A DNA stretch of 64,000 nt from Candidatus Rokuibacteriota bacterium. Its GTDB lineage: Bacteria > Methylomirabilota > Methylomirabilia > Rokubacteriales > CSP1-6. Position numbers and translations under genes: made by a program. Shown here one piece after another: positions 3,830-47,086 of this stretch. How positions within the stretch are numbered: position 1 is the stretch's first letter; each line of letters starts with the position of its first letter. Under the pieces are notes generated by a model that searched no databases, was not told where the DNA came from, and saw only the letters and a list, made by a program, of their open reading frames with translations. Where the stretch lies: the NCBI GenBank assembly GCA_023248995.1, contig JAHFDN010000001.1, positions 124,001 through 188,000 on the forward strand, written 5' to 3'.

Positions 3830-4525
3830 CTACTTGGCTGCCTTGGAGCCCTGCAGCGCTTGAGATCGACGCGCCAGCGCCAGCCCGACCACCACGATGG
3901 CAACGGCCAGACCGATGCGGACGCCCCACTCCAGGGCCCTCGACGCTTCCCCAATGCTTTGCTCGACGAACCGGTCTTCCAGAATCATCTTGCCCGCAAC
4001 CTCCCCCAACATGCCCGCTCCCAGGTAGATGATCCAACCGTAGCGGTTCATGAGTGTCGCGACGAACGCCGCTCCCCAGACCACGATGGGAATGCTGAGG
4101 CCGAGACCAAACAAGAGGAGCGCAAAGCTCCCTTCCGCCGCGGCGGCGATCGCCAGGATATTGTCGGTGGACATGATGAGGTCCGCGAGAATGATGATAC
4201 GGATCGCTTCCCCCAGGGTCGTCCCGTGGCGCACGCGCGCCTCGCCGCTCTCCTGGCGCAGCAGCTTGAACGCGATCCAAATCAAAAGGAGACCGCCGAT
4301 GAGTTGTAGGAACGGAAGACGAAGAAGCTGGACCGCCACGAACGTGAGAGCCACCCGCATGACGACGGCGCCGATCGCACCCCAGAAAATCCCGAGACGC
4401 TGCTGGCGCCGGGGGAGCGTGCGCACGGCCAGGGCGATCACCACCGCATTGTCGCCGGAAAGGACGATATTGATGAAGACGATCTTGAGCAGGCGCGCGG
4501 TGAATTCCCAGTCCACGGTTGCCAC
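3830..4525 (-). CDS. TerC family integral membrane protein (YjbE-like)
   Basis: A 231-residue membrane protein with about seven hydrophobic segments. It carries the paired acidic motifs of TerC proteins inside helices: LSGDNAVVIALA near residue 22 and ADLIMSTDNILAIAAA near 113. Known members act in metal-ion (especially manganese) export or tellurium resistance. The basic linker near residue 90-100 between the two halves is usual. It lies 6 bases after tctA and 19 bases before the GntR gene, so it is cotranscribed with a carboxylate transporter, which is an unusual partner. The substrate cannot be read from the sequence. Confidence 0.88.
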   Translation of the reverse strand: MATVDWEFTARLLKIVFINIVLSGDNAVVIALAVRTLPRRQQRLGIFWGAIGAVVMRVALTFVAVQLLRLPFLQLIGGLLLIWIAFKLLRQESGEARVRHGTTLGEAIRIIILADLIMSTDNILAIAAAAEGSFALLLFGLGLSIPIVVWGAAFVATLMNRYGWIIYLGAGMLGEVAGKMILEDRFVEQSIGEASRALEWGVRIGLAVAIVVVGLALARRSQALQGSKAAK

Positions 4526-4531
4526 GTGTCG

Positions 4532-6052
4532 TCAGTCGTGCGTTGTGACTCCCCCGCGCGAGGGCCGGCCCCGAAGGCGCCGCCACCAGGGGGTCAGAAC
4601 TGGCAGCACGAAGAAAAACAGCGCCACCGCGGTGATGATGCCCGCGATGGGACGCGTTGCGAAAATCGTGAGCGAGCCCTGGGACATGATCAGGCTCTGC
4701 CGTAGCGCGTTTTCCGCCAAATCTCCCAGGACCAGAGCCAGCACCAAGGGTGCCAGCGGGTAATCCAGCTTCTTGAACACGTAGCCGAGCACTCCGAAGA
4801 TGAGCATATACCAGACATCGATCATGTTGTTGTGGACCGCGTACGAGCCGATCGCGCACACGACCACGATCAGCGGTGTCAGGATCGCGAACGGAATGCG
4901 CAGGATCGCCGCGAAGAAGGGAACGAACGCGAGGACCATGAGCACGCCGATGATGTTGCCCGTGTACATGCTCGCGATGAGTCCCCAGACGAAATCCGGC
5001 TTTTCCACGAACAGCATCGGACCCGGCTGGAGTCCCCAAATGATGAGGCCGCCGAGCATGACGGCCGCGGTGGGCGAGCCCGGGATGCCGAGCGTGATCA
5101 TCGGGAGCATGGCCGCGACGCCGGCGGCGTGGGCAGCCGTCTCGGGGGCGACGACGCCCTCGAGTTCGCCCTTGCCGAACTTCTCGGGGTTCTTCGAAAA
5201 CCGTTTGGCGAACGAATAACTCATGAAGGACGCCGGCGTCGCGCCTCCCGGCTTGAATCCCATCCAAAAGCCGATGAAACAGCCGCGGATGAACGTGCGC
5301 CAGTATCGGGGAAGGACCTTCCAGGTATCCAGAACGACACGCAGGTTCATCCCCGTTCCGACACCCTTGAAGCTGAGACCCTCTTCGACGGACAGAAGGA
5401 TTTCACCGATCCCGAACAGCCCGATGACCGCCACGATGAAGTCGAATCCCGTCATGAGTTCGGCAATGCCGAACGTCATCCGGAGTTGACCGGTCACGAT
5501 GTCGAGGCCGACCGCGGCCAAAATGAAGCCGAGGAGGATCGATACGAGCGATTTGAGCGGATTCCCGCCGCCGAGACCCACGAAAGCCGAGAAGGTCAGG
5601 AACTGGATCGAGAAGATCTCCGGCGGCCCGAACTTGAGCGCCACGTCGGCGAGCAGGGGGGCGAACAGCGTGATCAGCACGGTGGAGAAAAACGCACCCA
5701 CGAACGAAGAGGTGAACGCGCCCGTCAGCGCGGCTCCACCCTGGCCCTTGCGGGCCATTGGGTACCCGTCGAACGTCGTGGCGACAGACCAGGGCTCGCC
5801 GGGGATGTTGAACAGCACCGACGTGATGGCGCCGCCGAACAAAGCGCCCCAGTAGAGGGAGGTAAGGAGGATGATGGCCGAATTGGGCGGCATCCTGAAC
5901 GTGAGCGGGAGGAGAATCGCGACGCCGTTGGCGCCCCCGAGGCCCGGCAGCACCCCGATGATGATGCCGAGGCTGAGGCCGACCACCGCGACGAAGAGGT
6001 TGAACGGCTCAAAGGCGATTTGAAAGCCGAGAGCGATATTCTCGATGCCCAT
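4532..6052 (-). CDS. tctA: tripartite tricarboxylate transporter, large membrane subunit TctA
   Basis: The 506-residue TctA permease has about 11-12 membrane segments. Family motifs include GIIIGVLPGLGGANGVAILLP near residue 30, the GxxxG-rich loop around NIPGEPWS, GFKPGGATPASFMSYSFA and MLPMITLGIPGSPTAAVMLGG. With TctB it forms the sodium- or proton-coupled channel that takes substrate from the periplasmic binding protein TctC. Gene order TctC-TctB-TctA with gaps of 1-3 bases is canonical. Substrates of the family include citrate, other di- and tricarboxylates and some aromatic acids; the particular substrate here is not determined. Confidence 0.96.
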   Translation of the reverse strand: MGIENIALGFQIAFEPFNLFVAVVGLSLGIIIGVLPGLGGANGVAILLPLTFRMPPNSAIILLTSLYWGALFGGAITSVLFNIPGEPWSVATTFDGYPMARKGQGGAALTGAFTSSFVGAFFSTVLITLFAPLLADVALKFGPPEIFSIQFLTFSAFVGLGGGNPLKSLVSILLGFILAAVGLDIVTGQLRMTFGIAELMTGFDFIVAVIGLFGIGEILLSVEEGLSFKGVGTGMNLRVVLDTWKVLPRYWRTFIRGCFIGFWMGFKPGGATPASFMSYSFAKRFSKNPEKFGKGELEGVVAPETAAHAAGVAAMLPMITLGIPGSPTAAVMLGGLIIWGLQPGPMLFVEKPDFVWGLIASMYTGNIIGVLMVLAFVPFFAAILRIPFAILTPLIVVVCAIGSYAVHNNMIDVWYMLIFGVLGYVFKKLDYPLAPLVLALVLGDLAENALRQSLIMSQGSLTIFATRPIAGIITAVALFFFVLPVLTPWWRRLRGRPSRGGVTTHD

Positions 6053-6055
6053 CGC

Positions 6056-6517
6056 TCAGTAACCCAACCAGGCCTCGAACGGTCCCTTCGGCAGTGGGAC
6101 GAGGAGCCATTTTTCGAAGACGAGGAACGTCACGAGCGGAATACTTAGCGACAAGGCCATGACAGCGAGCCACGAGTGGCGGCCCACCCAGCGCATGTAG
6201 AAGCCTATGTACAGCGCCGATGCGACGTACAGGCCCAGGAACTGGGTCACCGCCACCATCCCCGCCGCCGGCCACAAGACCTTGAGCACGGGCGCCAGCT
6301 GCTCGCGGGTCACGAAGGGCGCCGCGGACCCCCGGCGCAACGCCTGCAGCACGATCACGGCGCACGTCGCGATCATGATGGTGGCCAGCCAGAAGGGAAA
6401 GAAGCCGCTCTTGGGCCCGTCCGTCCCCCACCCGATGCCGAGCCGGACGGCGTCAAAGAGCACGACGCCGGCCAGCAGCATCAGAACTGCCGCGGTGATG
6501 AGATCGGCAGCCCGCAT
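6056..6517 (-). CDS. tctB: tripartite tricarboxylate transporter, small membrane subunit TctB
   Basis: A 153-residue protein with four predicted membrane helices: LITAAVLMLLAGVVLFDAV, FFPFWLATIMIATCAVIVL, a central helix near VLWPAAGMVAVTQFLGLYV, and LAVMALSLSIPLVTFLVF. TctB subunits are poorly conserved and are recognised by size, topology (including the GPKSGFFPFW loop after helix 1) and position between tctC and tctA. It starts 1 base beyond the tctC stop and ends 3 bases before tctA. Confidence 0.92.
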   Translation of the reverse strand: MRAADLITAAVLMLLAGVVLFDAVRLGIGWGTDGPKSGFFPFWLATIMIATCAVIVLQALRRGSAAPFVTREQLAPVLKVLWPAAGMVAVTQFLGLYVASALYIGFYMRWVGRHSWLAVMALSLSIPLVTFLVFEKWLLVPLPKGPFEAWLGY

Positions 6518-6518
6518 C

Positions 6519-7526
6519 CTACTTCTTTAGCAGACCGCCTTTAGCCATCAGATCCTTGTGAAGCTGTTCGTTCTCCTCCACCCACTTCACGTACTCGGCG
6601 CCGGTCGTGAACGCGGGCTTGAGCGCGCCGTCCGACAGGTACTTCTTGAATTCGGGGGTGTCGTAGACTTTCTTGAGAAGGCCGATGTACCAGTCCACCG
6701 CGTCCTTGGGCATGTTCGGAGCGCCGAAGATCCCGCGCAGCATCAGATAGTGGATGTCGACGCCGAGGGCCTCCTTCACCGTCGGGATCCCCTTCCAGTC
6801 GGGATCAGGGATGTGTGCCGTGTCGAACACTGCGAGGGGACGGACGCGACCGGCCTTCCAATGGCTCACGCATTCGATCGGGTTGTTGACTGTCGAGTCC
6901 ACGTGCGTGCCGACGAGGTTGACGCAGACCTCACCCCCGCCCTTGAACGGCACGTAGGTGAACTTGAGCCCGAGCGCTTGCTCGAGCTGGATCGTGATGA
7001 TCTGGTCCTCCTGTGCCGACCCGGTTCCGCCCATCTTCATGCGGTTACCCCCACCCGAGCGCTCCTTGACGACGGCGATGTACTCCTTGGCCGTCTTGTA
7101 GGGCGTCTCGGCGTTTACCCAGAGGATGAACTGGTCCAGCGCCATCCGGGCGATCGGGGTGAGATCACGCCAGTTGAAGGGGACACCCGTGTGGAGAGGG
7201 GTCGTGAACAGGTTCGACAGCGTGATGACGATCGTGTAGGCGTCGCCTTTCTTGCCCTTGACGTGAAGAAAACCTTCCGCGCCGGCGCCACCGGACTTGT
7301 TGACCACGATGAGCGGCTGGGGAGAGAGCTTGTGCTTCTCGGCGATGCCGCTGATCAACCGGGCCATCTGATCGGCCCCGCCCCCGGTCCCGGCGGGGAC
7401 GATGAACTCGATGGGTTTCGTGGGCTCCCAGGCGGCGACCGCGGGAGCCGCTCCACCCGTCAGCCAAACCGATCCCAGGATGGACAGGACGATCCAATGC
7501 GGAGACGGCGAACGCTGACCCTTCAT
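6519..7526 (-). CDS. tctC: tripartite tricarboxylate transporter, periplasmic binding protein TctC
   Basis: A 335-residue extracytoplasmic solute receptor (Bug family). A signal peptide is clear: basic MKGQRSPSPH, then the hydrophobic run IVLSILGSVWLTGGAAP, with cleavage near AVAAWEP. The mature part starts with the family hallmark EPTKPIEFIVPAGTGGGADQMARLI. The start at 7526 has AAGGAGGATT placed 7-8 bases upstream; the longer reading frame crosses the promoter. It is first in the tctCBA-TerC-GntR run, directly downstream of the oxidoreductase terminator. Bug receptors bind a carboxylate through two water-mediated contacts, so specificity cannot be predicted by eye. Confidence 0.95.
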   Translation of the reverse strand: MKGQRSPSPHWIVLSILGSVWLTGGAAPAVAAWEPTKPIEFIVPAGTGGGADQMARLISGIAEKHKLSPQPLIVVNKSGGAGAEGFLHVKGKKGDAYTIVITLSNLFTTPLHTGVPFNWRDLTPIARMALDQFILWVNAETPYKTAKEYIAVVKERSGGGNRMKMGGTGSAQEDQIITIQLEQALGLKFTYVPFKGGGEVCVNLVGTHVDSTVNNPIECVSHWKAGRVRPLAVFDTAHIPDPDWKGIPTVKEALGVDIHYLMLRGIFGAPNMPKDAVDWYIGLLKKVYDTPEFKKYLSDGALKPAFTTGAEYVKWVEENEQLHKDLMAKGGLLKK

Positions 7527-7581
7527 AGCAGAATCCTCCTTGGTCTGGATGCTTTGAGGTCGGACGCCCCAACGATGCAAG

Positions 7582-7654: not shown

Positions 7655-8671
7655 TTAGGCCTTCGCCTCCACGTCCTTTCGGAAGCAGACCACCCCCGGG
7701 ATCTCCCACTTGTCCCACATCTGGTCCACCTTGGCCTGGAAGTACTCCAGGTCTTCCTCGGTGAAGTGGGCGAAGCGGCCCTGCTTCAGCAGATACTCGC
7801 GAACCGGCTTGCGAGGCCGACCCTCGACAATGGCCTTGGTCTTCCCGTAGTACTTCAGGACGCCGTCCTCCACCTCGTAAAGGGGGAAGATGCCGCTTTC
7901 GATGGCGAGCTCCCCGAGCTCGTGGGAGAGCATGGGGTCGTAGTCCCACCCCTTCGGACACGGGTCCAGCGAGTGGATGAAGGTGGGACCGCCGAGCGTC
8001 AGCGCCTTGCGCACCCTGTTCATCATCTCCACGGCGTACGACGCGCAGACTGTCGCCACGTAGCGGCACTCGGGGTGGCCCGCCGCCAGCATGCCCGCCG
8101 TGTTCTTCTTCCACCGCGTGTGCATGATCCGCTTGACCTTGCCGGGCGGGCTGAAGGTCGTGTGGGCCCCGTAGGGGCTCGAGCCGGACACCTGGATGTC
8201 CGTGTTCGCGTACGACTCGTTGTCATAGAGCAGGATCAGCGAGTTGTACTCTTTGTGGGTGAGCGTCGCCGAGATCGCCCCCAGGCCCATGTCGGCCCCG
8301 CCGCCGTCGCCGCAGAAGGCGATGACGTTGATCGGCTCGGCCTTCATCTTCCCCTTTTTCATCAGAGCCTTCAGCCCCGCGGCGGTCCCCAGGGCCGCAG
8401 AGCCTGAGGAGCCGAGCTGGGTGTGCATCCAGGGAACCACCCACGGCGTGCTGTAGTAAGTGGTGTTGGCCACGTACATGCAGCCCGTGGACCCGAGCAC
8501 GATGGTTCGAGGCCCAGCGGCTTTGACCATGAGCTTCATGACCAATGCCGACTCGCACCCCTGGCAGGTCCGGTGACCCGAGGAGAAATACTCCTCGATC
8601 GTGACCTTCTTAACGCCCTTGAAGGGCTCAAGCACCTGGGTTGCGTTGCTGAAAGTGGTCGTTTCAGCCAT
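7655..8671 (-). CDS. 2-oxoacid:ferredoxin oxidoreductase, beta subunit (probable oxalate oxidoreductase beta)
   Basis: The 338-residue TPP-binding subunit. TPP/Mg motif: AFCGDGGGADMGLGAIS at about 118-134, followed by YDNESYANTDIQVSG. A [4Fe-4S] cluster is indicated by C36-x2-C39 (TCQGCESALV), C64 (STGCMYV) and C238 (SLDPCPKGW), the standard PorB set. It is the third gene of the gamma-delta / alpha / beta operon, 12 bases after alpha, and is followed by a strong terminator. The fold is that of pyruvate:ferredoxin oxidoreductase; the oxalate assignment rests on the alpha subunit, because the beta residues seen here are common to the superfamily. Confidence 0.93.
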   Translation of the reverse strand: MAETTTFSNATQVLEPFKGVKKVTIEEYFSSGHRTCQGCESALVMKLMVKAAGPRTIVLGSTGCMYVANTTYYSTPWVVPWMHTQLGSSGSAALGTAAGLKALMKKGKMKAEPINVIAFCGDGGGADMGLGAISATLTHKEYNSLILLYDNESYANTDIQVSGSSPYGAHTTFSPPGKVKRIMHTRWKKNTAGMLAAGHPECRYVATVCASYAVEMMNRVRKALTLGGPTFIHSLDPCPKGWDYDPMLSHELGELAIESGIFPLYEVEDGVLKYYGKTKAIVEGRPRKPVREYLLKQGRFAHFTEEDLEYFQAKVDQMWDKWEIPGVVCFRKDVEAKA

Positions 8672-8683
8672 GGGTTGGCCTCC

Positions 8684-9913
8684 TTACTCGCGTACGCCGA
8701 GCCAGTAGGTGGCTCGCTCCGTTTTACCGGCCTTAGCTGCACTGTAGCAGATTTCGGTGGTCTTGTAGACGTCCTCCAGCGTGACCTCCCGGCCCCCCAG
8801 CCCGCAGATGAAGCCAATGAGCGGCGGCCGGTGCTCGGCGTTATAGAGCGCTGCCCTCACCTCCGTGGCCACGACACCGGAGCCGAACGGCGACCCGAAG
8901 GAGTAGTCCCGGTCGATGACCCCAATGGCTTTGGCCTTTCGGAGGGCTTCGGCGAGCTGCTCGTAGGGGAATGGCCGGAACCAGCGAAGTCGGATCAGCC
9001 CGACTTTCTTCCCTTCCTCGCGCATCTTCCGGATCGCCACCTTGACCGGGAGCGAGAGCGTTCCCATCCCCATCAGGATAACCTCGGCGTCCTCCGTCAT
9101 GTACTCCTCAAACCACGGATTCTCGGGCCCCCGCCCGAACACTCGACGAAAGTCGGCGTAGGCCTCCTCGATCACCGTATAGGCCCGCTCCGTCGCGGCG
9201 TTATTCTGACGACGGATTTCGATGACCCAGTCCTCGTTTACCTGAGGGGCGACGGTGATGGGGTTATCGGGGTGGAGCTGGAGGTCGCCGCGGTTGTACG
9301 GGGGGAGGAACTTCTCCACAAGGGATTTGGACGGCACCTTGGTGATGGCCTGGGAGTGGGTCAGGAAGGCCCCGTCGGCAGAGATCGCGATGGGGAGGAA
9401 GATCCGACGGTCTTCGGCCACGCGATAGGCGATCAGCGTCGTGTCCAGCGCTTCCTGGGAGCTGTCGATCCAGCAGAGCAGCCACCCCAGATCCCGGACG
9501 AACAGGGCGTCGTTGTGCTCCACGCCGAAGGCGCCCGGGTCGTCGAGGGCACGGTTGCCGACCATGGCGACCAGCGGCACCCTGAGCGCCGGCGTGACGA
9601 CCAGGCACTCCATCGCGTAGGCCCAGCCGACGCCAGAGGAGCCGCAGAAGACGCGGGCCCCGACGGTGGAGGCGTGCTTGACGATCTCGAACTGGCTGTG
9701 CTCACCCTCCGCGACGATGTACTCGGCGACGAGCTGCCCGTTGGCAATCTTCTTGGCGATGGCCTGCATGACCGTATCGTAGGGTCGGATCGGGTACGCG
9801 GTGACGACGTCGATGTCAGCGAGTGTCAAGGCCTCGGCGATGGCCTCGCTCCCGGAGATCAGCATCTCCTGTTCTTGAGCGGCGGCCGGAGCCGCTTGGG
9901 TTGCCACGGTCAT
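8684..9913 (-). CDS. 2-oxoacid:ferredoxin oxidoreductase, alpha subunit with oxalate oxidoreductase active-site residues
   Basis: The 409-residue alpha subunit contains the domain I pyrimidine-binding half of the TPP site (VAEYIVAEGEHSQFEIVKHA, with the glutamate that activates TPP) and the C-terminal domain II (VILMGMGTLSLPVKVAI). Pyruvate enzymes have a YPITP-type loop. Here it is AYPIRPYDTVMQAI, with Arg43, and a second loop reads GNRALDDPGAFGVEHND. From memory, the key residues of Moorella thermoacetica oxalate oxidoreductase are alpha Tyr28, Arg31, Arg109, Asp112 and Phe117. Tyr40, Arg43, Arg121, Asp124 and Phe129 all match with a constant offset of 12. The predicted reaction is oxalate to two CO2 with reduction of ferredoxin, without CoA. 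It sits between the gamma-delta and beta genes. Confidence 0.85.
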   Translation of the reverse strand: MTVATQAAPAAAQEQEMLISGSEAIAEALTLADIDVVTAYPIRPYDTVMQAIAKKIANGQLVAEYIVAEGEHSQFEIVKHASTVGARVFCGSSGVGWAYAMECLVVTPALRVPLVAMVGNRALDDPGAFGVEHNDALFVRDLGWLLCWIDSSQEALDTTLIAYRVAEDRRIFLPIAISADGAFLTHSQAITKVPSKSLVEKFLPPYNRGDLQLHPDNPITVAPQVNEDWVIEIRRQNNAATERAYTVIEEAYADFRRVFGRGPENPWFEEYMTEDAEVILMGMGTLSLPVKVAIRKMREEGKKVGLIRLRWFRPFPYEQLAEALRKAKAIGVIDRDYSFGSPFGSGVVATEVRAALYNAEHRPPLIGFICGLGGREVTLEDVYKTTEICYSAAKAGKTERATYWLGVRE

Positions 9914-9939
9914 GATTCGTTCCCCCCTTAGAGATCCGG

Positions 9940-11217
9940 CTAGCCGCCGGGAGCTTCGGCGACTCCCGTGACGATCGATGACGATTTGTCTTCGTGGGCG
10001 CTCGGCTTCAATCCCTTCTGGTCCGCATTCTCTCCCGGGATGCCGCTAGCCAGCGCCGCACCACCCAGTTCCAGCTCGCCTGATGCCAGCTCCTGTTCAT
10101 ACTGGCCGCGGTAGCGGAAGCCGTGGGAGCGAGCCACGTGGACCTTGTCCGTGATCTTTGCCCCGAGCCACACCTTGTACGCATCCTTGTCCTTACGCCA
10201 CATGTCCCACTGGCTGGCGTTATTGTCGAAGGCCGCCTCGTTCACCATCGTGATGCAGTTCCCCACTGGGCAGACGGCCTCGCAGATGCCGCAGCCGCAG
10301 CAGGATTCCATGTTGGCGTCGTAGAGGCCCTCTGGGGTGACGTCGAAGCAGGAGTCCGGGCACTGGAGCCAGCAGAGCGTGCACTTCACGCACGTGTCGA
10401 AGTCGATGACCGGCCGCATGGTGCGGGTGGAGAACTTCTTGAAGACCGTGCTTCGCTCGGGCCGATAGCCCTTCCCCCCCTCGATGGGCTTCCCGATAGG
10501 AAGGGATGGAATCGTCACGCCCTCGCGCATCTCCCACCACTTGGGCATCTCGAAGGAGTAGGGGGTCTCAGGGTTCCCCTCGGTAATTTTCACCGCCCGG
10601 CCCTCGACCCGCTCGTAGGCCTTCCTGGCGGATTCGACCTTGAGGTCGGACCCCCAGTCGGCCTCCCTGATCGCCTCCGCGACCGCCTGGAGGCTGAGGA
10701 TCTGGGGCGCGATCTTGGCCAGGGCACCCAGGACCCGCACCTCGGTGTGATCCTCCTTATAGACCCAGAGCCCCGCCAGAGAGGCCTTCCCGGGAAGAAT
10801 CCAGAGGGAATAAGGCGTGTTCTTCTTGTGGGCGTCCTTCAGGAGTTCGTCCGCTGACTGTGTGGAGGTGACGAGGAGATGGCCGTTCGGGAGGAGCAGC
10901 CGGTTGATCGGCTGGAGCCCGTACCAGGCCCAGGATTCGACTCCCTTGCACAGGGTGTCGTCCACACAAATGGTGACGTGGAGCTCCTTGGGCTGGTAGC
11001 GGGCCATGTGCTGCTCCAACTCTTCCTTGGTGTCCGCCACGATGGCGAAGTCCTTAGCAGGGACCCCGTTTCGCTGCGGGCTGTCCCCATAGCGGCCGAA
11101 GGCGATCCCCCACCTGCCCGCCTTGCGAGCGGAAAGGACGATGCCGCGCGTGATACGGGCCGCCAGGTTCTTCTGGAAAATGCCACGATAGACGACTTCA
11201 GCGATTAGGTGGGCCAT
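9940..11217 (-). CDS. 2-oxoacid:ferredoxin oxidoreductase, fused gamma-delta subunit
   Basis: A 425-residue fusion. Residues about 1-185 form the gamma domain (YRGIFQKNLAARITRGIVLSARKAGRWGIAFGRYGDSP at the start). A linker follows, then a ferredoxin-like delta domain with two cluster motifs, CVKCTLCWLQCP and CCGCGICEAVCP, carrying two [4Fe-4S] clusters that pass electrons to ferredoxin. About 100 C-terminal residues beyond the second motif are less conserved and polar. A gamma-delta fusion with separate alpha and beta genes is the arrangement of Moorella oxalate oxidoreductase. The ATG at 11217 (MAHLIAEVVYRG) was chosen because GAGGAGG lies 6 bases upstream; the longer frame lacks a site. First gene of the operon. 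Confidence 0.92.
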   Translation of the reverse strand: MAHLIAEVVYRGIFQKNLAARITRGIVLSARKAGRWGIAFGRYGDSPQRNGVPAKDFAIVADTKEELEQHMARYQPKELHVTICVDDTLCKGVESWAWYGLQPINRLLLPNGHLLVTSTQSADELLKDAHKKNTPYSLWILPGKASLAGLWVYKEDHTEVRVLGALAKIAPQILSLQAVAEAIREADWGSDLKVESARKAYERVEGRAVKITEGNPETPYSFEMPKWWEMREGVTIPSLPIGKPIEGGKGYRPERSTVFKKFSTRTMRPVIDFDTCVKCTLCWLQCPDSCFDVTPEGLYDANMESCCGCGICEAVCPVGNCITMVNEAAFDNNASQWDMWRKDKDAYKVWLGAKITDKVHVARSHGFRYRGQYEQELASGELELGGAALASGIPGENADQKGLKPSAHEDKSSSIVTGVAEAPGG

Positions 11218-22148: not shown

Positions 22149-23540
22149 ATGCCCCCACGGACCTGGACGCTCGTCAACCCCGCTACCGAGGAGCCGTTCC
22201 GCACCGTTTCGTACACCGATCCACCGGAGGTCGCGCGGCTGCTCGAGCGCGCCCAGAGAGCCCAGCGCCAGTGGCGGAACGTCCCGCTCGACGAGCGTGT
22301 CCGGACCGTCTCGCAGATGATGCCGGCGTTCCGCGCGATGGCCGACGGCGTGGCCGGCGACATCACGCGCCAGATGGGGAAGCCGCTCCGGCAATCCCTG
22401 GACGAGATCCAGACCATGATCGACCGCGCCGAGGCGATGTGCCGCCTCGCCCCGGCGGCGCTCGCCGACGAGCGCCTACCGGAAAAGCCGGCGTTTCGCC
22501 GCTTCATCCGCCACGAGCCCCACGGTGTGGTGCTGGACATCGCAGCCTGGAATTACCCGCTCCTGATCGCCGTCAACGTGGTGGTCCCGGCCCTTCTTGC
22601 CGGCAACGCCGTCCTCCTCAAGCACGCGCGGCTCACGCCCCTCTGCGCCGATCATTTCGTTGACGCCTTCGCCAAGACAGACCTGCCCCCCGGCCTCATC
22701 GCCGCGCTCCGGCTCGATCACGAGGCCACGGCCGCGCTGATCCGGTCCGGGGACGTGGATCATGTCTCGTTCACGGGCTCGGTGGCCGGCGGCCGGGAGA
22801 TTTACCGGCACGTGGCCACCCGCTTCATGGACGCGGGGCTGGAACTCGGCGGGAAGGATCCCGCCTACGTCGCGGCCGATGCCGATCTGGACCACGCGGT
22901 CGAGAACCTGGTGGACGGCGCCTTTTACAACGCCGGGCAGAGCTGTTGCGCGGTGGAGCGGATCTACGTGGATCGCTCCGTCTTCGGTCGGTTCGTGGAC
23001 GCGTACGTCGAGCTGGTCCGGCGCTACCGCATGGGCGAGCCGGAGGACGACGGCACGACGCTGGGCCCCCTGGCCCAGCGGTCGGGCGTCACGCTCGTTC
23101 TCGAGAAGATCGCAGAGGCCAAGGCCAAGGGCGCACGGGTCCTCACCGGCGGCGTCCCCTGGGCGGGCAAGGGGTTCTTCTGCGAGGCGACCGTGCTCGT
23201 CAACGTCAACCACAGGATGACCGTCATGCGTGAGGAAAGCTTCGGTCCCGTGATCGGGATCATGCCCGTTGCCGACGAGGAGGAAGCGGTCCGACTGATG
23301 AACGACAGTCCGTACGGGCTCACCGCGTCCATCTGGACGCGCGACCTCGACCGGGCCGCGCGTCTGGGCGACCGCCTCGAAACCGGAACGGTGTACGCAA
23401 ACCGGTGCGACTACCTCGATCCCATGCTGCCCTGGGTGGGCGTGAAGGACAGCGGTAAGGGGTGCTCCCTGTCCCATCTGGGCTTTCTGTCCCTGACCAG
23501 GCCGAAGAGCTTCCACCTGCGCGCGACCGAAAGGAGGTGA
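22149..23540 (+). CDS. NAD(P)-dependent aldehyde dehydrogenase
   Basis: 463 residues, aldehyde dehydrogenase superfamily. The general base lies in LELGGKDPAYVAADADLDHA, the nucleophile in NAGQSCCAVERIYVD (cysteine pair), the cofactor region in DIAAWNYPLLIAVNVVVPAL, and the C-terminal EESFGPVIGIMP motif is present. The length is slightly short (470-500 is usual), as in succinate-semialdehyde or aryl-aldehyde types. The substrate is unknown. It precedes the [2Fe-2S]-ASKHA gene by 29 bases. Confidence 0.93.
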   Translation: MPPRTWTLVNPATEEPFRTVSYTDPPEVARLLERAQRAQRQWRNVPLDERVRTVSQMMPAFRAMADGVAGDITRQMGKPLRQSLDEIQTMIDRAEAMCRLAPAALADERLPEKPAFRRFIRHEPHGVVLDIAAWNYPLLIAVNVVVPALLAGNAVLLKHARLTPLCADHFVDAFAKTDLPPGLIAALRLDHEATAALIRSGDVDHVSFTGSVAGGREIYRHVATRFMDAGLELGGKDPAYVAADADLDHAVENLVDGAFYNAGQSCCAVERIYVDRSVFGRFVDAYVELVRRYRMGEPEDDGTTLGPLAQRSGVTLVLEKIAEAKAKGARVLTGGVPWAGKGFFCEATVLVNVNHRMTVMREESFGPVIGIMPVADEEEAVRLMNDSPYGLTASIWTRDLDRAARLGDRLETGTVYANRCDYLDPMLPWVGVKDSGKGCSLSHLGFLSLTRPKSFHLRATERR

Positions 23541-23554
23541 GTGAGGGGGCGTGC

Positions 23555-23560
23555 TATCAT
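23555..23560 (+). promoter_or_regulatory. possible -10 element before the ASKHA gene
   Basis: TATCAT ends 9 bases before the ATG at 23570, with no convincing -35 and no ribosome site close to the ATG. If used, the transcript would be leaderless. Read-through from the aldehyde dehydrogenase gene is the alternative. Confidence 0.3.
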
Positions 23561-23569
23561 ACGGCCGGC

Positions 23570-25420
23570 ATGACCGTTTCCCTCACCGTCCTTCCCGACA
23601 ACCGGGAGCTCCAGGTGCCGGCTGGGGCCACGATCCTCAAGGCAGCTCAGGCCGCAGGGATTGACATTACCGCCACGTGCGGCGGACGCGGCCGCTGCAC
23701 CTCCTGCCGCGTAAAATTCCTGCGCGGAACCGTTCCGCCCGCCACCATCATGGATGAGCTCCAGCTGGGCGCCGATCTGGTGCGCGAAGGCTACCGCCTC
23801 TCTTGCCAGTGCCGCGTCACCGAGCCCGTCGCGGTGCAGGTCGCCCCGCCCCTGGACGAGCGGGCGTTCCAGATGCTGGGCGCCGACCGGAGCATCCGGG
23901 ATGTCGCGCGGGTCGTCATCGGCGCCGGCATCGCCAAGCAGGTCGTGAAGGTCCCGCTCCCCCGCGAGGAGCACCACCAGACATCCGACCTCGAGGAGCT
24001 GCTGGGCGTCATCGGGCGCACCACCGACGACATCGCCCCCGCCATCCTCCGGGAGCTGCCACTGACTCTGAGGGACGGCGGGGGCGAGGTCACGGTCACC
24101 ACGTTCGGGCGGCAGGTCCTCGCGGTGGAGAAGGGCGACACGGCGCTCATGAAGTTCGGCCTGGCCGTGGACGTCGGGACGACGAGCGTCGTGAGCACGC
24201 TGATCGAGCTCGAGTCGGGGGAGCAGCTCGCCTCGGTCGCGAGCCTGAATCCCCAGGCCGTGTTCGGCGGTGATCTGATGTCCCGGATCGCTTTCGCGCA
24301 ATTCAACCCGGTTAACCTGCGCAAGCTTCAGACCAGGATCATCGGCCTCCTGAACCAGCACGTCGAGGAGATCGTCCGCCAATCGGGCGTGCTCGCCAAG
24401 TGGATCTACAAGGTCGTGGTCGTGGGCAACACCTGCATGCACCACATCCTCCTCGGCATCGACCCCTCCTACGTCGGGCTGGCCCCGTACGCCCCCGTCA
24501 TGCGCCACTCCCTGGTACTACCCGCCCGGGAGCTCTTCCTCAAGGTGAATCCTGAAGCGAGAGTGTGTCTGCTCCCGATCGTCGCCGGCTTCGTCGGGGC
24601 CGATGCCGTGGCCGTCGCACTCGCCACGCGCATCTACGAGAGCTCCGAGGTTCGGATCGCCGTGGACATCGGGACCAACGGCGAGGTCCTCCTGGGCTCC
24701 AAGGCGCACCTCTGGGCGTGCTCGGCACCCGCCGGCCCCGCTCTGGAGGGCGCCCAGATCCGGCACGGGATGCGCGGCGCCCTCGGCGCGATCGACCGCG
24801 TGCGGATCGGGGACGAGGTCGAGATCCACACCATCGGGGAGGTCGCCCCCCTCGGCATCTGCGGCTCCGGGATCATCGACCTGCTGGCCGGGATGCTGGA
24901 CCAGGGCATCATCGACCACTCAGGGCTCATCCGGCTCGAGGATCGCGACCGCCTCGCGCCGCGTCTCAGGGAGCGCGTCGTGATGCGCGGCGAAGAGCGC
25001 CAGTTCATCCTCGTCAGGCCGGGGGAGGCCGGCGCGACGGGGGAGATCGTCCTCACCCAGGAGGACATCCGCCAGGTCCAGCTGGCCAAAGGCGCCATCG
25101 CCTCCGGCGTGGCGATGCTCCAGCACGTGGCCGGCATCCCCAGTGAGCAGATCGCCGAGCTGATGCTGGCGGGCGGCTTCGGCAACTACATGTCGATCGA
25201 GAGCGCGCTCAGGATCGGACTGGTCCCGACGCTGCCGGCCGGGAAGATCCGCTACGTCGGAAACGCCGCATCCCTGGGGGCCCAGCTCTGCCTCGTCTCC
25301 GAGGCCGAGCGGCAGCGCGCCGACCGCATCGCGCGCGGCATCGAGCACGTCTCCCTCGCAGCGCATCCCGCCTTTCAGGACCTCTTCGTCGACTGCATGA
25401 ACTTTCCCAGGCGGGCATGA
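23570..25420 (+). CDS. [2Fe-2S] ferredoxin-ASKHA protein, corrinoid-activating RACo-like (DUF4445)
   Basis: 616 residues. An N-terminal plant-type [2Fe-2S] domain has C37-x5-C43-x2-C46 (TCGGRGRCTSCRVKF) and a fourth cysteine near 79 (YRLSCQCRV). The long C-terminal part has ASKHA ATPase motifs: LAVDVGTTSVVSTLIEL, VVVGNTCMHHILLGIDP, IAVDIGTNGEVLLGS and AGGFGNYMS. This is the architecture of reductive activators of corrinoid proteins (RACo, and the activating enzymes of methyltransferase systems), which use ATP to re-reduce Co(II). It overlaps a UroD-family methyltransferase-like gene by ATGA. No corrinoid protein gene is present. Confidence 0.9.
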   Translation: MTVSLTVLPDNRELQVPAGATILKAAQAAGIDITATCGGRGRCTSCRVKFLRGTVPPATIMDELQLGADLVREGYRLSCQCRVTEPVAVQVAPPLDERAFQMLGADRSIRDVARVVIGAGIAKQVVKVPLPREEHHQTSDLEELLGVIGRTTDDIAPAILRELPLTLRDGGGEVTVTTFGRQVLAVEKGDTALMKFGLAVDVGTTSVVSTLIELESGEQLASVASLNPQAVFGGDLMSRIAFAQFNPVNLRKLQTRIIGLLNQHVEEIVRQSGVLAKWIYKVVVVGNTCMHHILLGIDPSYVGLAPYAPVMRHSLVLPARELFLKVNPEARVCLLPIVAGFVGADAVAVALATRIYESSEVRIAVDIGTNGEVLLGSKAHLWACSAPAGPALEGAQIRHGMRGALGAIDRVRIGDEVEIHTIGEVAPLGICGSGIIDLLAGMLDQGIIDHSGLIRLEDRDRLAPRLRERVVMRGEERQFILVRPGEAGATGEIVLTQEDIRQVQLAKGAIASGVAMLQHVAGIPSEQIAELMLAGGFGNYMSIESALRIGLVPTLPAGKIRYVGNAASLGAQLCLVSEAERQRADRIARGIEHVSLAAHPAFQDLFVDCMNFPRRA

Positions 25421-26412
25421 CCAAGCTCGAACGGCTCCGGGCGGCGATCGCCCGGCAGCCTGTAGATCGCGTTCCCTACGCGGTCTGGTGCCATTTCCCC
25501 GACGTGGACCGCTCGACCGCCGGCCTGGCCCAGGCCACGCTCCGCTTCCACCAGCGATACGGCTCGGACTTCATCAAGGTCACCCCGCGCGCGGCCTACG
25601 CCGTGGAGGACTGGGGGTGCGTGGAATCCGACAAGGTCATGCCCGATGGTCACCGCCCGTGCGCCTCCCACGCGGTCAACCGCGCCGCCGACTGGAAGCG
25701 GATCAAGCCCCTCGACCTCGGCACGACGGCCTATGCGCAGCATCTGGAGAGCGTCGTGCGCGTCGTCCTGGACAAGCGCGCCGACGCGCCGGTCATCCCG
25801 ACCGTCTTCAGCCCTCTCTCGGTGGCTCGGAAGCTGTCGGGCGACAGGCTGAGCCAGGACCTCCGGGAGCAGCCCGAGGCGGTGGTGGAGGCGCTGGAAG
25901 CTATCACTGACACGCTGGTCCGTTTCGTCAACCTCTGCCTCGACCAGGAAGCCGGCGGGATTTTCTACTCGATCCAGGCCGCCAGCCGTCGATTCCACAC
26001 CGAGGCGGAGTACGCCAGGTTCGGAGAGCCCTACGACCGGCGGGTCCTCGAGACCGCCAGGGCTCGGGCCTCGCTCGCCATCGTCCACGCCCATGGGGAC
26101 GAACTGATGTTCGACTGCCTCGCACGACTGCCCGGCCACATCTGGAACTGGGACGACCGGGTCGCCGGGCCTTCCCTCAGAGAGGCGAAGGCGCGGGTCC
26201 GCGGCGCCGTGAGCGGCGGCGTGAACCAGTGGGCCACCATCCGCGACGGGAGCCCGGAGGACGTCCGCGCAGAGGCCGAGGACGCCGTGGCTCAGACCGA
26301 CGGGATCGGCCTCATCGTGGGGCCGGGCTGCGTGCTGCCGCCGGGTTCGCCCGACCAGAACGTGACGGCCCTCGTCAGGGCCCTCGGCGGGAATGTGGGA
26401 CTCGTCCTGTGA
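25417..26412 (+). CDS. uroporphyrinogen decarboxylase family protein (corrinoid methyltransferase-like)
   Basis: 331 residues, UroD/MtaA/CmuA fold, starting KLERLRAAIARQPVDRVPYA as methyltransferases of this family do. The HemE substrate residues are absent. MtaA-type enzymes bind zinc with H-x-C and a late Cys. Here the equivalents are H224-A-H226 (IVHAHGD) and C305 (VGPGCVLPPGSPDQN), so zinc could be held by His-His-Cys. With the upstream RACo-like gene this points to methyl transfer to or from a corrinoid or thiol. A SAM-methyltransferase gene overlaps its stop by one base. Confidence 0.85.
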   Translation: MTKLERLRAAIARQPVDRVPYAVWCHFPDVDRSTAGLAQATLRFHQRYGSDFIKVTPRAAYAVEDWGCVESDKVMPDGHRPCASHAVNRAADWKRIKPLDLGTTAYAQHLESVVRVVLDKRADAPVIPTVFSPLSVARKLSGDRLSQDLREQPEAVVEALEAITDTLVRFVNLCLDQEAGGIFYSIQAASRRFHTEAEYARFGEPYDRRVLETARARASLAIVHAHGDELMFDCLARLPGHIWNWDDRVAGPSLREAKARVRGAVSGGVNQWATIRDGSPEDVRAEAEDAVAQTDGIGLIVGPGCVLPPGSPDQNVTALVRALGGNVGLVL

Positions 26413-39748: not shown

Positions 39749-41034
39749 CAGAGCACCCCCTGGTCCCCAAGCTCGGCCAGGCGTTCCGGGCCGAAGCCGA
39801 AATACTTCCTGTACACATGCGCGTTGTGAAAGCCGACCGGCCGGCACGCCCACGTGAGGCGGGGCGGCGTCCGGGTCATGCGCCAGGCCGGCATCTGAAG
39901 CAACAGCTCGCCGTACAACGGATCCCTCACCTTCTTGAAGCAGCCCCGCTCCCACCAATGGCCTTCCTCCAGCACGCGCGTGGGCGGATTCATCGGGCCG
40001 AACACGATGATCCCTGGACCGGGATCGGCCATCACTTTTTCTAGTATCTCATCCGCGGTGAGCGTGATGGACCATTTTTCGATCTCCTGCCGCAGGAGGA
40101 TCTCGTGCTCCGGATGCGTCCGCTGGATGGTCGTGCTGAAGCGGGAATCCTTGGCCAGCTCCGGCCGGCCCATCACGCGGCAGATCGCCTGAAAGTTCGG
40201 ATCCGTGTAGCCCGCGATGAAGGCGTAGCCGTCCTTGACCCGGACGAACGTATACGGAAAGACAGCCAGCTCGTAGAGCCCCATCCGCCCCCTCACTTGC
40301 CCCGTCGCGTGATAGAGGAGCACCGTGTACTCCATGTATCGCAAGAGCGCCTCCACGCCGGACACGTCGATCATCTGCCCCCGCCCCGAGCTCTCCCGCC
40401 AGTGAAGCGCCGCGAGGACGCCGAGCGTGGCCCAGGCAGCCTGGGCATAGGCGCTGACCCAGCTCCCCACGCGGATCGGCGGCCCGTCGGGGTCGCCGGT
40501 GACGTGCATGAGGCCCGACAGCGCCTGGTCGGTCAGGTCGTACTCGGCCGCTTGTCTCGGTGCGTCGGGACCGAACTGCCCATAGGCCGAACATGCGACG
40601 TACACGAGGCGCGGGTTCATCCGGGCCAGCTGCCGGTAGCCGAGGCCGAGGCCGTCGAGGTACCCCGGTCGAAATCCTTCGACCAGGACATCAGCCCGCG
40701 CGGCCAGCCCTTTGAGCAGTCTTCGACCCGACGGTTTGCCCAGGTTCAGCGTGACGCAGTACTTGTTCCGCGCCTCGGCGACGAACGCGAGACCCGTGCC
40801 GTTGACCGTGGCGTCGGCCGGTCCCCAGCGGCGAACCGGGTCCCCTCCGGGTGGCTCGACTTTGATCACCTCTGCCCCGAGCTCCGCCAGGTACGTCCCG
40901 CAGAGAAAGGCGCCGTAGTGCCCCTGGGAGACGTCGAGCACGACGAGGTCGTCGAGTGCCTCAGGCTTCTCCGAGACCCGGGCGGGATCCTCCTCAGCCC
41001 GGATCCAGTCGTACCAGGGGACTGGTCCGCTCAC
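39748..41034 (-). CDS. CaiB/BaiF (class III) CoA-transferase
   Basis: 428 residues. It starts at a GTG overlapping the stop of the preceding CoA-transferase (GTGA). Family marks: LVVLDVSQGHYGAFLCGTYL, AELGAEVIKVEPPGGDPVRR, LNLGKPSGRRLLKGLAARAD and the catalytic-aspartate region AAEYDLTDQALSGLMHVTG. It moves CoA between organic acids; this subgroup includes succinyl-CoA-dependent and aromatic or branched-acid enzymes. Together with the next gene it could form a heterodimer or two isozymes. Substrate unknown. Confidence 0.92.
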   Translation of the reverse strand: MSGPVPWYDWIRAEEDPARVSEKPEALDDLVVLDVSQGHYGAFLCGTYLAELGAEVIKVEPPGGDPVRRWGPADATVNGTGLAFVAEARNKYCVTLNLGKPSGRRLLKGLAARADVLVEGFRPGYLDGLGLGYRQLARMNPRLVYVACSAYGQFGPDAPRQAAEYDLTDQALSGLMHVTGDPDGPPIRVGSWVSAYAQAAWATLGVLAALHWRESSGRGQMIDVSGVEALLRYMEYTVLLYHATGQVRGRMGLYELAVFPYTFVRVKDGYAFIAGYTDPNFQAICRVMGRPELAKDSRFSTTIQRTHPEHEILLRQEIEKWSITLTADEILEKVMADPGPGIIVFGPMNPPTRVLEEGHWWERGCFKKVRDPLYGELLLQMPAWRMTRTPPRLTWACRPVGFHNAHVYRKYFGFGPERLAELGDQGVL

Positions 41035-42365
41035 AGCAGAGACCCCTCCCCTTGCCAGCCGTCTGGCGGCTTGGGGCCGACCCGGTCCGCCCACTTCCCC
41101 ACGACCCCTTCCACCGCGAGCGCCTGGATCTCCTCGTCCGAGAGGCCGAGGATCTTTTTCAAGACGAACTCGTTGTGAAAGCCCACAGGCTTGCCGGCCC
41201 ACTTGATCCGGGCTGGGGTGGCGGAGAGCTTGGGTGCCGGGCCGTACTCCACCATGGTGCCGTACACAGGATCCTCGTACTCCCACACCGACCGCCGCGC
41301 GCGGAGGTGCTGGCTCTCGTAGTGGTCTTTCCCCGTCATCACCCGGCCTACCGGGACGCCGAAGCGGCGCGCCGCGCTGTCGATCGCGCGCCGCGTCCGC
41401 TTCTCGCACCAGGCCCGGATCGCGCCGTCGAGGGCATCGGCGCTCTCCGGCTTCCTTCGGGATTCGACGCCGCGAAAGCGCCGGTCTCGCGCCCAGGCGG
41501 TCTTCCCAAGCATCCGGAGCAATCCGCGAAACTCGGCGTCGCTTCCCGCCACGAGGGCCACGAACCCGTCCTTGCATGGGTAGACGCCCGAGGGGGAGAA
41601 GACCGGGTCGCGGTTGCCGATCCTCGGCCGGTCCCGCTTGGTCACCCCCGCGTAGAGCCAGGTCCAGTCCATGGCCCGGAGCAGCCCTTCGCACTGGGCC
41701 ATCTCCACGAACTGCCCCTCCCCCGTCCGGTCGCGCCAGCGGAGCGCCGCCAGCGCGCCGACGGCCGACATTGACGCGCCGTACCAGTCCCCGATGTAGT
41801 TGCCGATCTTCGTGGGGTGCTCCCCCGGCGTGCCGGTGATGGCGGTGAGCCCGGACACGGCTTGGGCGAGGCCGTCATAGGAGGCGCGCCCGCGCGCGAA
41901 CGGGCCCCACTGACCAAAGCCCGTGTTCGCCACGTAGATCAGGCGCGGGTTCACCTCGCGCAGCTGGCGGTAGCCGATGCCGAACCTCTCCTCGCACGTC
42001 CCGGCCCGGAAGTTTTCGATCACGACGTCCGACCGGGCGGCGAGCTTCCGGATCAGCGCCTGGCCGGCCGGCTTGTGCATGTCGATCCCGACGTGGTACT
42101 TGGAGTGGTTTTGGGGGAAAAAAGCCAGGGAGACGTTCTTCCAGAAGAACGAGGCGCCGCCGAGGATCCGCGTCACATCCCCCTGCCCCGGCAACTCGAC
42201 CTTGATGACCTCCGCCCCCAGCTCTCCCAGGAAGTCCGCGGTCGCGGGGCCGAAGATGATGACCGACAGGTCCAGGACGCGAATACCGTTGAGGGCCTCG
42301 GGCTTGGCGTGGATCTGGGCCGGGTCAAAAAGCCGCTGCGCCCACCGGAAATACTCGCGGCGCAT
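41031..42365 (-). CDS. CaiB/BaiF (class III) CoA-transferase
   Basis: 444 residues, paralogue of the downstream gene. RVLDLSVIIFGPATADFLGE, LGAEVIKVELPGQGDVTRIL, VVIENFRAGTCEERFGIGY and ASYDGLAQAVSGLTAITGTP (catalytic Asp) are all present. A 27-residue N-terminal lead (YFRWAQRLFDPAQI) precedes the normal start, as in alpha-methylacyl-CoA racemase/benzylsuccinate-type members. It follows the SCP2 gene by 13 bases; the order SDR, SCP2, CoA-transferase pair, phaC suggests one long acyl-CoA operon. Confidence 0.92.
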   Translation of the reverse strand: MRREYFRWAQRLFDPAQIHAKPEALNGIRVLDLSVIIFGPATADFLGELGAEVIKVELPGQGDVTRILGGASFFWKNVSLAFFPQNHSKYHVGIDMHKPAGQALIRKLAARSDVVIENFRAGTCEERFGIGYRQLREVNPRLIYVANTGFGQWGPFARGRASYDGLAQAVSGLTAITGTPGEHPTKIGNYIGDWYGASMSAVGALAALRWRDRTGEGQFVEMAQCEGLLRAMDWTWLYAGVTKRDRPRIGNRDPVFSPSGVYPCKDGFVALVAGSDAEFRGLLRMLGKTAWARDRRFRGVESRRKPESADALDGAIRAWCEKRTRRAIDSAARRFGVPVGRVMTGKDHYESQHLRARRSVWEYEDPVYGTMVEYGPAPKLSATPARIKWAGKPVGFHNEFVLKKILGLSDEEIQALAVEGVVGKWADRVGPKPPDGWQGEGSLL

Positions 42366-44936: not shown

Positions 44937-45896
44937 CTAGGACGCCTTCAGAATGTCGGCCAGCGCCCCCGGGTCCACGTTCCCGCCCGAGAGAACCACG
45001 CCGACCCGCGAGCCCTTGGGCAGGGGGAGTCTCCCAGCCAGGACTGCCGCTGCGCCCACCGCTCCCGTCGGCTCGACCAGGAGTTTCGCGCGGAGCAGCA
45101 GGAACTTGACCGTCTCGACGATCTCGGCGTCGGCCACGAGCAAGATGCCCTCGAGGTTTTTCTGGAGAATCGGAAAGGTCAGTTCCCCGGGGCTCAGGTT
45201 TCGGATACCATCGGCGATCGTCGGCGGCGGAGCGATCGTGACCCGCTCGCCCTTCTGGAGCGAGAGCCACGTGTCGTTGGCGCTCTCGGCCTCCACGCCG
45301 AACAGCCTGACGGCCGAGTCCATCGCCTTGGCGACCGTGCTCGAGCCGGCCATGAGGCCGCCACCCCCGACCGGGGTCAACAGCGCGTCCAGCACGGGCA
45401 CGTCCTCGAAGAGCTCGAGCGCGGTCGTCCCTTGGCCCGCGATGATCGCGGGGTCGTCGTAGGGCGGCACGAGCACCCGGCCCGTTTCGGCAACGAGGCG
45501 TCGGGCGATGGCTTCCCGATCCTCGGTCTGCCGATCATATAGGACGACATCGGCCCCGTATCCACGGGTCGCCGCCAGCTTCAGCCGCGGGGCGTCGGTC
45601 GGCATGGCGATCACCGCCGAGGTCCCCACCATCCGCGCGGCCAGCGCCACGCCCTGGGCGTGGTTCCCGGACGAGAACGCCACGACCCCTCGGGCACGCT
45701 CCCCGTCCGAAAGCGTGAGCAGCTTGTTCAGCGCTCCGCGGATTTTGAACGAGCCGGCGCGCTGGAGGTTTTCGCACTTGAAGAAAACCGAGAAGCCGCT
45801 GGCCTCGTCGAAGGACCGGCAGGTGACGACCGGAGTCCGGTGGATGCGATCCCGGAGACGCCCGGCCGCGGCGCGGACGTCGTCAAGGGTGATCAC
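44937..45896 (-). CDS. PLP-dependent threonine/serine dehydratase-like enzyme
   Basis: 319 residues, fold-type II PLP enzyme. The lysine motif is LQRAGSFKIRGALN, the phosphate-binding loop is VGGGGLMAGSS, and SSGNHAQGVALAARM is the substrate-binding stretch. It lacks the C-terminal ACT regulatory domain of IlvA. This layout fits catabolic threonine dehydratase, serine racemase or 3-hydroxyaspartate ammonia-lyase. It overlaps the upstream CoA-transferase stop by ATGA, so one role may be linked to a hydroxy-amino-acid route. The exact substrate is open. Confidence 0.9.
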   Translation of the reverse strand: MITLDDVRAAAGRLRDRIHRTPVVTCRSFDEASGFSVFFKCENLQRAGSFKIRGALNKLLTLSDGERARGVVAFSSGNHAQGVALAARMVGTSAVIAMPTDAPRLKLAATRGYGADVVLYDRQTEDREAIARRLVAETGRVLVPPYDDPAIIAGQGTTALELFEDVPVLDALLTPVGGGGLMAGSSTVAKAMDSAVRLFGVEAESANDTWLSLQKGERVTIAPPPTIADGIRNLSPGELTFPILQKNLEGILLVADAEIVETVKFLLLRAKLLVEPTGAVGAAAVLAGRLPLPKGSRVGVVLSGGNVDPGALADILKAS

Positions 45897-47086
45897 ACCA
45901 CTCCTTCCTTCCGGAGCCCCGCCACCTCGGCGGCCGTCAGGCCCAGGAGGCGCCCCAGCACCTCTTCCGTGTGCTGGCCCAGGAGCGGCGGCGGACTCGC
46001 GACTTCTCCCGGAGTCTCAGAAAACTTCACCGGGACACCGACCAGCTTGATACTCCCGGCCGTGGGATGGGTGACTTCCTCGACCATGTCACGATCGAGC
46101 ACCTGAGGATCTCTGAACACGTCGGCAACGCTGTTAATGGGACCCGTGGGCAATCCGGCGGCGCCGAAGGCCTCCACCCACTCGTCGCGGCTCCGGCTCT
46201 TTAAACGCTCCTCGATCATCCTGACGAGCTCGCCCCGCCGCGCCACTCGCTTCTCGTTGGAATCGAACCGCGGGTCGTCGGCCCACTCGGGCACCCCGAG
46301 CACCTCGCAGAAGCTCTTCCACAGGCGCTCGTTACCGGCGCCGACCATGAGGTAGTCGTCCTTGGCCTTGAAGGCCTGGTACGGGACGACCGAGGCGTGG
46401 GCGCTTCCCCACCGCCCCTGCACCTCCCCGGCTATGAGATGGGCCGTGGCGGCGTTCATGAGCGAGGCCACTCCGGATTCGAGGAGCGAACACTCCACCT
46501 TCTGCCCCCGCCCGGTCCGCTCCCGGTGCAGCAGCGCCGCCAGGATCGCCCCGTGGGCGTATAGCGCGGTGATCTCGTCGATCAGCGCCACACCCACCTT
46601 GACCGGCGGCCCATCGGCCTGGCCAGTGATGGACATCAGCCCCGTCACACCCTGCATGATCGCGTCGTAGCCGGCCCACTCGCGCTTCGGGCCGGAGGCG
46701 CCGAATCCAGAGATCGCGCAGTAGATCAGGCGGGGGTTCTCCTCGCGGAGGGTTTCGTAACCCAGTCCTAAGTCTTCCATCGTGCCCGGCTTGAAGTTCT
46801 CCAGGACCACGTCGGCCTGGCGGACCAGCGCCTTGAGGATCTCCTTGCCGCGGGGGTGTTTCAGGTTCAGGGTGACGGACTTCTTGTTCCGGTTGATCGA
46901 AAAAAAGTAGGTCGGCGAGCCGTCCGGCGCCTTCGGCGGCGCCCATTGCCGGCTGTCGTCCCCTACTCCGGGCTGCTCGATCTTGATGATCTCGGCGCCG
47001 TAGTCGCCGAAAATCTGCGTGGCCAGCGGGCCGGCCACGATGCGCGAGAGATCAACGATTCGCACGCCCTCGAGGGCACGGGGCAC
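45893..47086 (-). CDS. CaiB/BaiF (class III) CoA-transferase
   Basis: 397 residues, a canonical class III enzyme (formyl-CoA:oxalate or succinyl-CoA-type). It has the start RALEGVRIVDLSRIVAGPLA, the stretch YGAEIIKIEQPGVGDDSRQW, the motif FSINRNKKSVTLNLKHPRGK, and the catalytic aspartate in AGYDAIMQGVTGLMSITGQ. The C-terminus LGLTAAEVAGLRKEGVV is family-typical. It is the third of its kind in 7 kb, but in a separate transcript with the threonine dehydratase-like gene. Divergent from sppA. Confidence 0.93.
   Translation of the reverse strand: MPRALEGVRIVDLSRIVAGPLATQIFGDYGAEIIKIEQPGVGDDSRQWAPPKAPDGSPTYFFSINRNKKSVTLNLKHPRGKEILKALVRQADVVLENFKPGTMEDLGLGYETLREENPRLIYCAISGFGASGPKREWAGYDAIMQGVTGLMSITGQADGPPVKVGVALIDEITALYAHGAILAALLHRERTGRGQKVECSLLESGVASLMNAATAHLIAGEVQGRWGSAHASVVPYQAFKAKDDYLMVGAGNERLWKSFCEVLGVPEWADDPRFDSNEKRVARRGELVRMIEERLKSRSRDEWVEAFGAAGLPTGPINSVADVFRDPQVLDRDMVEEVTHPTAGSIKLVGVPVKFSETPGEVASPPPLLGQHTEEVLGRLLGLTAAEVAGLRKEGVV

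Follow-up and report, generated by a model that had tools for sequence, protein, structure and literature searches.

Among the acids that plants and fungi bring into soil, oxalate is common, and bacterial breakdown of it is usually ascribed to the oxalyl-CoA route. For oxalate oxidoreductase (OOR), a 2024 review (PMC11045627) names no organism other than Moorella, and the enzyme was left unconsidered in PMC8062136. In the enzyme of Moorella thermoacetica, Asp116 was cited together with Arg31 among the residues that matter for the bait-and-switch mechanism (PMC5020499); the roles of OOR residues given below were taken from that paper and from PDB titles. We describe here a relative of this enzyme, encoded at positions 7655–11,217 of a 64,000-nucleotide stretch from a Candidatus Rokuibacteriota bacterium (the window: contig JAHFDN010000001.1, positions 124,001–188,000). 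The enzyme, made of α, β and fused γδ subunits, belongs to a sister clade of the Moorella OOR, called below the window clade, and we consider it very probable that the enzyme oxidises oxalate to two CO2 and reduces ferredoxin, acting as an oxalate:ferredoxin oxidoreductase.

The α tree, built from 47 sequences, separated the OOR set, the window set and a third subclade of few members from 18 pyruvate-type sequences with a support of 100/100. The OOR set consisted of the Moorella sequence and ten sequences from the window's phylum and from Acidobacteria, and was sister to the window set together with the third subclade; an earlier sample of 56 sequences gave the same arrangement. The β tree agreed, with 100/100 for OOR plus the window clade against the pyruvate-type enzymes. 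A sequence-only reading of the locus had proposed such trees as a check, and the protein stood with OOR in both of them, not among the pyruvate-type enzymes. Phenylglyoxylate and indolepyruvate enzymes, which were left out of the trees, ranked well below OOR in NCBIfam scores: the phenylglyoxylate dehydrogenase models PadG and PadI gave 268 and 137 bits, respectively (cut-off of 700 each). The closest solved chain to α was 5c4i_A (348 bits, the next being a Methanosarcina pyruvate oxidoreductase at 217), and the closest to β was 5c4i_C (296 bits, the next at 202), with an identity of β to the Moorella OOR of 48%. The predicted α model (mean predicted local distance difference test score, pLDDT, of 80) was also nearest to 5c4i_A, with a TM score of 0.88–0.91 at 43% identity.

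The α subunit contains AYPIRPYDT and GNRALDDPGAF, exactly as the sequence-only reading had reported. That reading had also placed five active-site residues of the Moorella enzyme at a constant offset of +12. In the alignment to 5c4i_A, the residues Tyr40, Arg43, Arg121, Asp124 and Phe129 of the window did pair with Tyr28, Arg31, Arg109, Asp112 and Phe117 of Moorella, so that both arginines occupy the OOR positions. All five, which are residues expected of an OOR in the strict sense (with Arg31 inside YPIRP), were conserved across the window clade. Equivalents of Tyr28 and Arg109 were also present in nearly all pyruvate-type rows, and the informative residues are therefore Arg31, Asp112 and Phe117. 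The pyruvate:ferredoxin oxidoreductases are recognised by YPITP, with Thr at position 31, where the window α has Arg43. The remark that the match would be hard to get by chance was borne out on a larger set of positions: 12 α columns, including the three informative ones, were fixed in OOR and in the window clade and absent from the 18 α pyruvate-type sequences, and 7 β columns behaved in the same way against 16 β pyruvate-type sequences, which is far beyond chance. The reverse pattern, in which the window clade sides with the pyruvate-type enzymes against OOR, concerned 2 α columns and no β column.

The γδ subunit matched OOR by sequence at its ferredoxin end, and its eight cluster cysteines (C290, C293, C296, C300, C320, C323, C326 and C330) were invariant in 16 homologues. 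The top matches of the predicted fold were the Moorella OOR γδ chains (5c4i, 5exd and 5exe), over both domains; the γδ model had a low mean pLDDT of 65, and the fold match alone was therefore used from it. The fusion of γ with δ, put forward earlier as a likeness to the Moorella enzyme, is indeed present. It was rejected as a marker of OOR and is weak evidence, because the strict OORs of the window's phylum have γ and δ as separate frames.

The subunit genes stand at the head of a tightly spaced run in which all genes have the same direction:

9940..11217, minus strand: γδ subunit, a POR-γ-like domain fused to a two-[4Fe-4S] ferredoxin domain, starting at the conserved Met15
8684..9913, minus strand: α subunit, with the YPIRP motif and the LDDPGAFG switch-loop region; best solved relative 5c4i_A
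7655..8671, minus strand: β subunit, thiamine pyrophosphate (TPP) binding, with the TGCMYVAN and YDNESYANT motifs as in OOR; nearest solved chain 5c4i_C
6519..7580, minus strand: TctC, tripartite transporter binding protein (PF03401), probable oxalate receptor from the TctC-OOR linkage
6056..6517, minus strand: TctB, small membrane subunit of the transporter (PF07331), in conserved synteny
4532..6052, minus strand: TctA, large membrane subunit of the transporter (PF01970), in conserved synteny
3830..4525, minus strand: TerC-family membrane protein (PF03741), the last gene of the run

The limit at 11217 given by the sequence-only reading falls on Met15 of γδ, which is conserved; at its longest, the open frame extends to 11259, from a TTG codon. 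The adjacent TctA, TctB and TctC domains are those of a tripartite tricarboxylate transporter, and the genes from γδ to TctA apparently form an operon of an enzyme with its uptake transporter. The TerC-family gene followed TctA in most Rokubacterial loci. Wherever the flank was long enough, TctCBA came after the enzyme genes in nearly all Rokubacterial loci, and likewise at strict OOR loci; at three loci (L003, L013 and L038) a more distant TctCBA occupied the same place. The TctC proteins of the strict OOR loci were 60–74% identical to that of the window, though the α chains were only 42–44% identical. Among the TctC copies listed, 45 of the 56 with at least 41% identity lay within 6 kb of an OOR-type α gene, compared to 0 of 22 below this value. 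Some of the TctC copies without a nearby OOR may be explained by contig breaks.

At acidobacterial loci of the window clade (L113–L119, with a partial match in L118, and L031, L034 and L035) TctCBA was replaced by a major facilitator superfamily (MFS) gene. An MFS gene was also found at both acidobacterial strict OOR loci with enough flank (L123 and L124). The nine MFS proteins scanned, which came from both enzyme clades, all passed the cut-off of the oxalate/formate antiporter family TIGR04259 (378–532 bits for a cut-off of 335), and the nearest solved protein was the oxalate:formate antiporter OxlT (8hpj). Among acidobacterial genomes, the antiporter was found in 11 of 15 that have the enzyme and in 0 of 20 that lack it (Fisher p of 3e-6, related genomes not being independent). 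The window genome held one weak and unlinked match to this family (211 bits), the operon having TctCBA instead. The transporter type thus tracks the phylum and not the enzyme clade, a pattern suggesting that both clades use the same substrate. Two unrelated transporter families, each common to both enzyme clades within its phylum, would be hard to explain without one shared substrate. As one of the two families is annotated for oxalate, the gene context provides independent support for this substrate.

Several observations weigh against oxalate, or against a plain OOR. The identity of α to the Moorella enzyme was only 44%. The NCBIfam OOR models were the top matches of all three window chains, though below their cut-offs (α, 392 of 500 for NF045791; β, 343 of 590 for NF045792; δ, 78 of 230 for NF045790), and the strict OOR α of the window's phylum and of Acidobacteria passed NF045791 with 581–592 bits. 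The Moorella Asp116 corresponds to Ala128 in the window, and Ala was found there in every sequence of the window clade and of the third subclade that was aligned. Because of these scores and of the replaced aspartate, the window enzyme is best described, from its sequence, as an OOR-like deep sister branch and not as an OOR in the strict sense; the earlier identification as an oxalate oxidoreductase is supported by the trees, the residues and the transporter linkage, with the correction that the enzyme, though it probably works like an OOR, stands outside the curated family. The transporter of the window belongs to a family with many substrates, and no OOR gene was present in the 12 kb read at L127, which has a TctCBA set of the same type. 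The antiporter family lies close to that of the lactate transporters, which several of the acidobacterial proteins also matched at or above the cut-off.

One rival reading is an OOR-derived enzyme shifted to another small acid (glyoxylate, mesoxalate or a different 2-oxo-dicarboxylate, for example), with TctCBA or an OxlT-like carrier bringing it in. Between OOR and the window clade, 22 α columns were fixed differently, among them the position of D116, now A, and two positions neighbouring Arg109. Genes that hint at glyoxylate metabolism occur close to some acidobacterial loci: isocitrate lyase with a weak malate synthase match in L115, a malate synthase domain in L113, and an aminotransferase, an acyl-CoA ligase and a ketopantoate-reductase-like gene in L123. 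The presence of both clades in the genomes G003 and G096 could also mean different roles. However, the carboxylate-binding positions that separate OOR from the pyruvate enzymes were all kept, and the two clades share their transporter type within each phylum, one type passing the oxalate/formate antiporter cut-off, so that we regard a change of substrate as unlikely. A pyruvate or branched 2-oxoacid:ferredoxin oxidoreductase with a superficial likeness to OOR appears very improbable. It would belong to the same superfamily, and the archaeal PorA model reached 338 bits on the window α compared to 392 for the OOR α model, but YPIRP in place of YPITP, the 11 other OOR-only α columns and the 100/100 support in the trees speak for OOR, and the pyruvate-type loci of the same genomes are made of separate genes without these transporters. 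Operation in reverse, with oxalate made from CO2 for export, would fit antiporters running both ways and an enzyme class that is reversible in principle. Ordinary ferredoxin is less negative than the CO2/oxalate couple, TctCBA with its binding protein is of the uptake type, and the window genome yielded neither a RuBisCO large subunit nor a NiFe hydrogenase; we give this direction hardly any weight.

We propose that the oxalate:ferredoxin oxidoreductase would work as follows. TctCBA would import oxalate. The oxalate would then add to TPP where α meets β, its carboxylates being held by Arg43 and Arg121. Asp125 may take over from the lost Asp116. The switch loop reads LDPPGDFG in Moorella and LDDPGAFG in the window clade; each has two acids, at different positions, and Asp125 of the window stands at the position of the Moorella Pro113. 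The chemistry of the loop was probably retuned in the window clade, with the second acid at Asp125. The loop region (residues 122–131) was among the least confident inner segments of the α model. A broader hypothesis, to which we give slightly less than an even chance, is that of a second catalytic design for OOR, in which the role of Asp116 moved to the acid three residues earlier. Through this clade, much of Rokubacteria and some Acidobacteria would draw electrons for ferredoxin from oxalate, with neither oxalyl-CoA nor acetogenesis involved.

The metabolism of the window genome, rated 97% complete, was probed family by family. No oxalyl-CoA decarboxylase over the cut-off was found in it (261 against 739 bits), nor in the five genomes from Acidobacteria and Gammaproteobacteria in which the window clade was first found, and only 1 of 95 genomes of the window's phylum had one. 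In the absence of this decarboxylase, two family III CoA-transferases of the window (41031–42365 and 45893–47086), considered as formyl-CoA transferases, were unsupported and this route was rejected. Haem-copper oxidase, like the RuBisCO large subunit and NiFe hydrogenase, was not found in the window genome, so a role of oxalate as an electron source is more likely than one as the only source of carbon. A RACo-type corrinoid-protein activator gene followed by a URO-D-family gene (23462–26412) suggests corrinoid-dependent methyl transfer in this genome, which is small (G000, 2.34 Mb) compared to most sampled relatives of its family.

Of the 57 genomes sampled from the window's family, 41 had the window-clade α gene, as had others of its order and class; a named record (L003, Candidatus Rokuibacteriota) had an α 97% identical to that of the window. 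Strict OOR was found in six genomes of the phylum. One or both enzymes were carried by 12 of 396 sampled Acidobacteria, and one Gammaproteobacterial contig (L036) carried the window-clade enzyme. In plasmid records only pyruvate-type relatives were found, all below 60% identity (the best about 34%). Two genomes of different phyla held a strict OOR and a window-type enzyme at separate loci: G003 (L090, L081) and G096 (L034, L123), where each locus adjoins its own transporter. The third subclade (L120, L121 and L122, in genomes G392, G368 and G379) had about 55% α identity and kept Arg31, Asp112 and Phe117. Its β had NESAANT where the other clades have NESYANT, no antiporter was found near any of its three members, and its substrate may be different.

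Other gene arrangements were observed around these enzymes. Upstream of the operon, the segment 11386–15563 contained a SIS-domain protein gene, PdxT- and PdxS-like genes (by sequence) and a GntR/MocR-type gene; this order was kept in most Rokubacterial loci, the SIS gene being there in the nearest relatives only. In the acidobacterial strict OOR operons (L123:5922–7754 and L124:9478–11310), the δ ferredoxin domain was located behind a glutamate-synthase-small-subunit-like FAD/NAD(P) module in a 610 aa protein, a fusion that suggests a pyridine-nucleotide-linked OOR. Several strict OOR operons had a CDC48-like AAA ATPase gene (about 700–750 aa) between the GntR regulator and the γ gene (L075:1574–3697, L078:7972–10089 and L124:12008–14269).

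In the literature we found no report of OOR in Rokubacteria, Methylomirabilota or Acidobacteria, a search that most subscription journals lay outside, so that novelty is unproven. Oxalate use in uncultured bacteria of soil and groundwater probably follows a route so far regarded as rare. If so, ferredoxin-linked oxalate oxidation would be common in a soil and groundwater lineage that has yet to be cultured, oxalate would suggest itself as a growth substrate for isolating this lineage, and genes missed by surveys of oxalate degradation would be flagged.

Among known systems, the Moorella OOR (5c4i, 5exd and 5exe; NF045790–NF045792) resembles the window enzyme in its α, β and fused γδ subunits, in Arg31 of YPIRP, Arg109, Asp112 and Phe117, and in TPP and ferredoxin-type clusters. 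The window enzyme differs by Ala128 for Asp116 and Asp125 for Pro113, by its separate clade, and by its scores below the NCBIfam cut-offs; Moorella is an acetogen, whereas the window clade comes from Rokubacteria, Acidobacteria and one Gammaproteobacterial bin. The pyruvate:ferredoxin oxidoreductase of Methanosarcina acetivorans (9bt4) shares the superfamily, the subunit fold and the cofactors, but has YPITP, separate γ and δ, no equivalents of Asp112 or Phe117, and an α identity of 33%. In phenylglyoxylate dehydrogenase (PadEFGHI) the α and β subunits are related to those of the window, with a PadG score far below that of OOR. For transport, the known counterpart is OxlT, of the same antiporter family as the transporter beside the acidobacterial members of the window clade.

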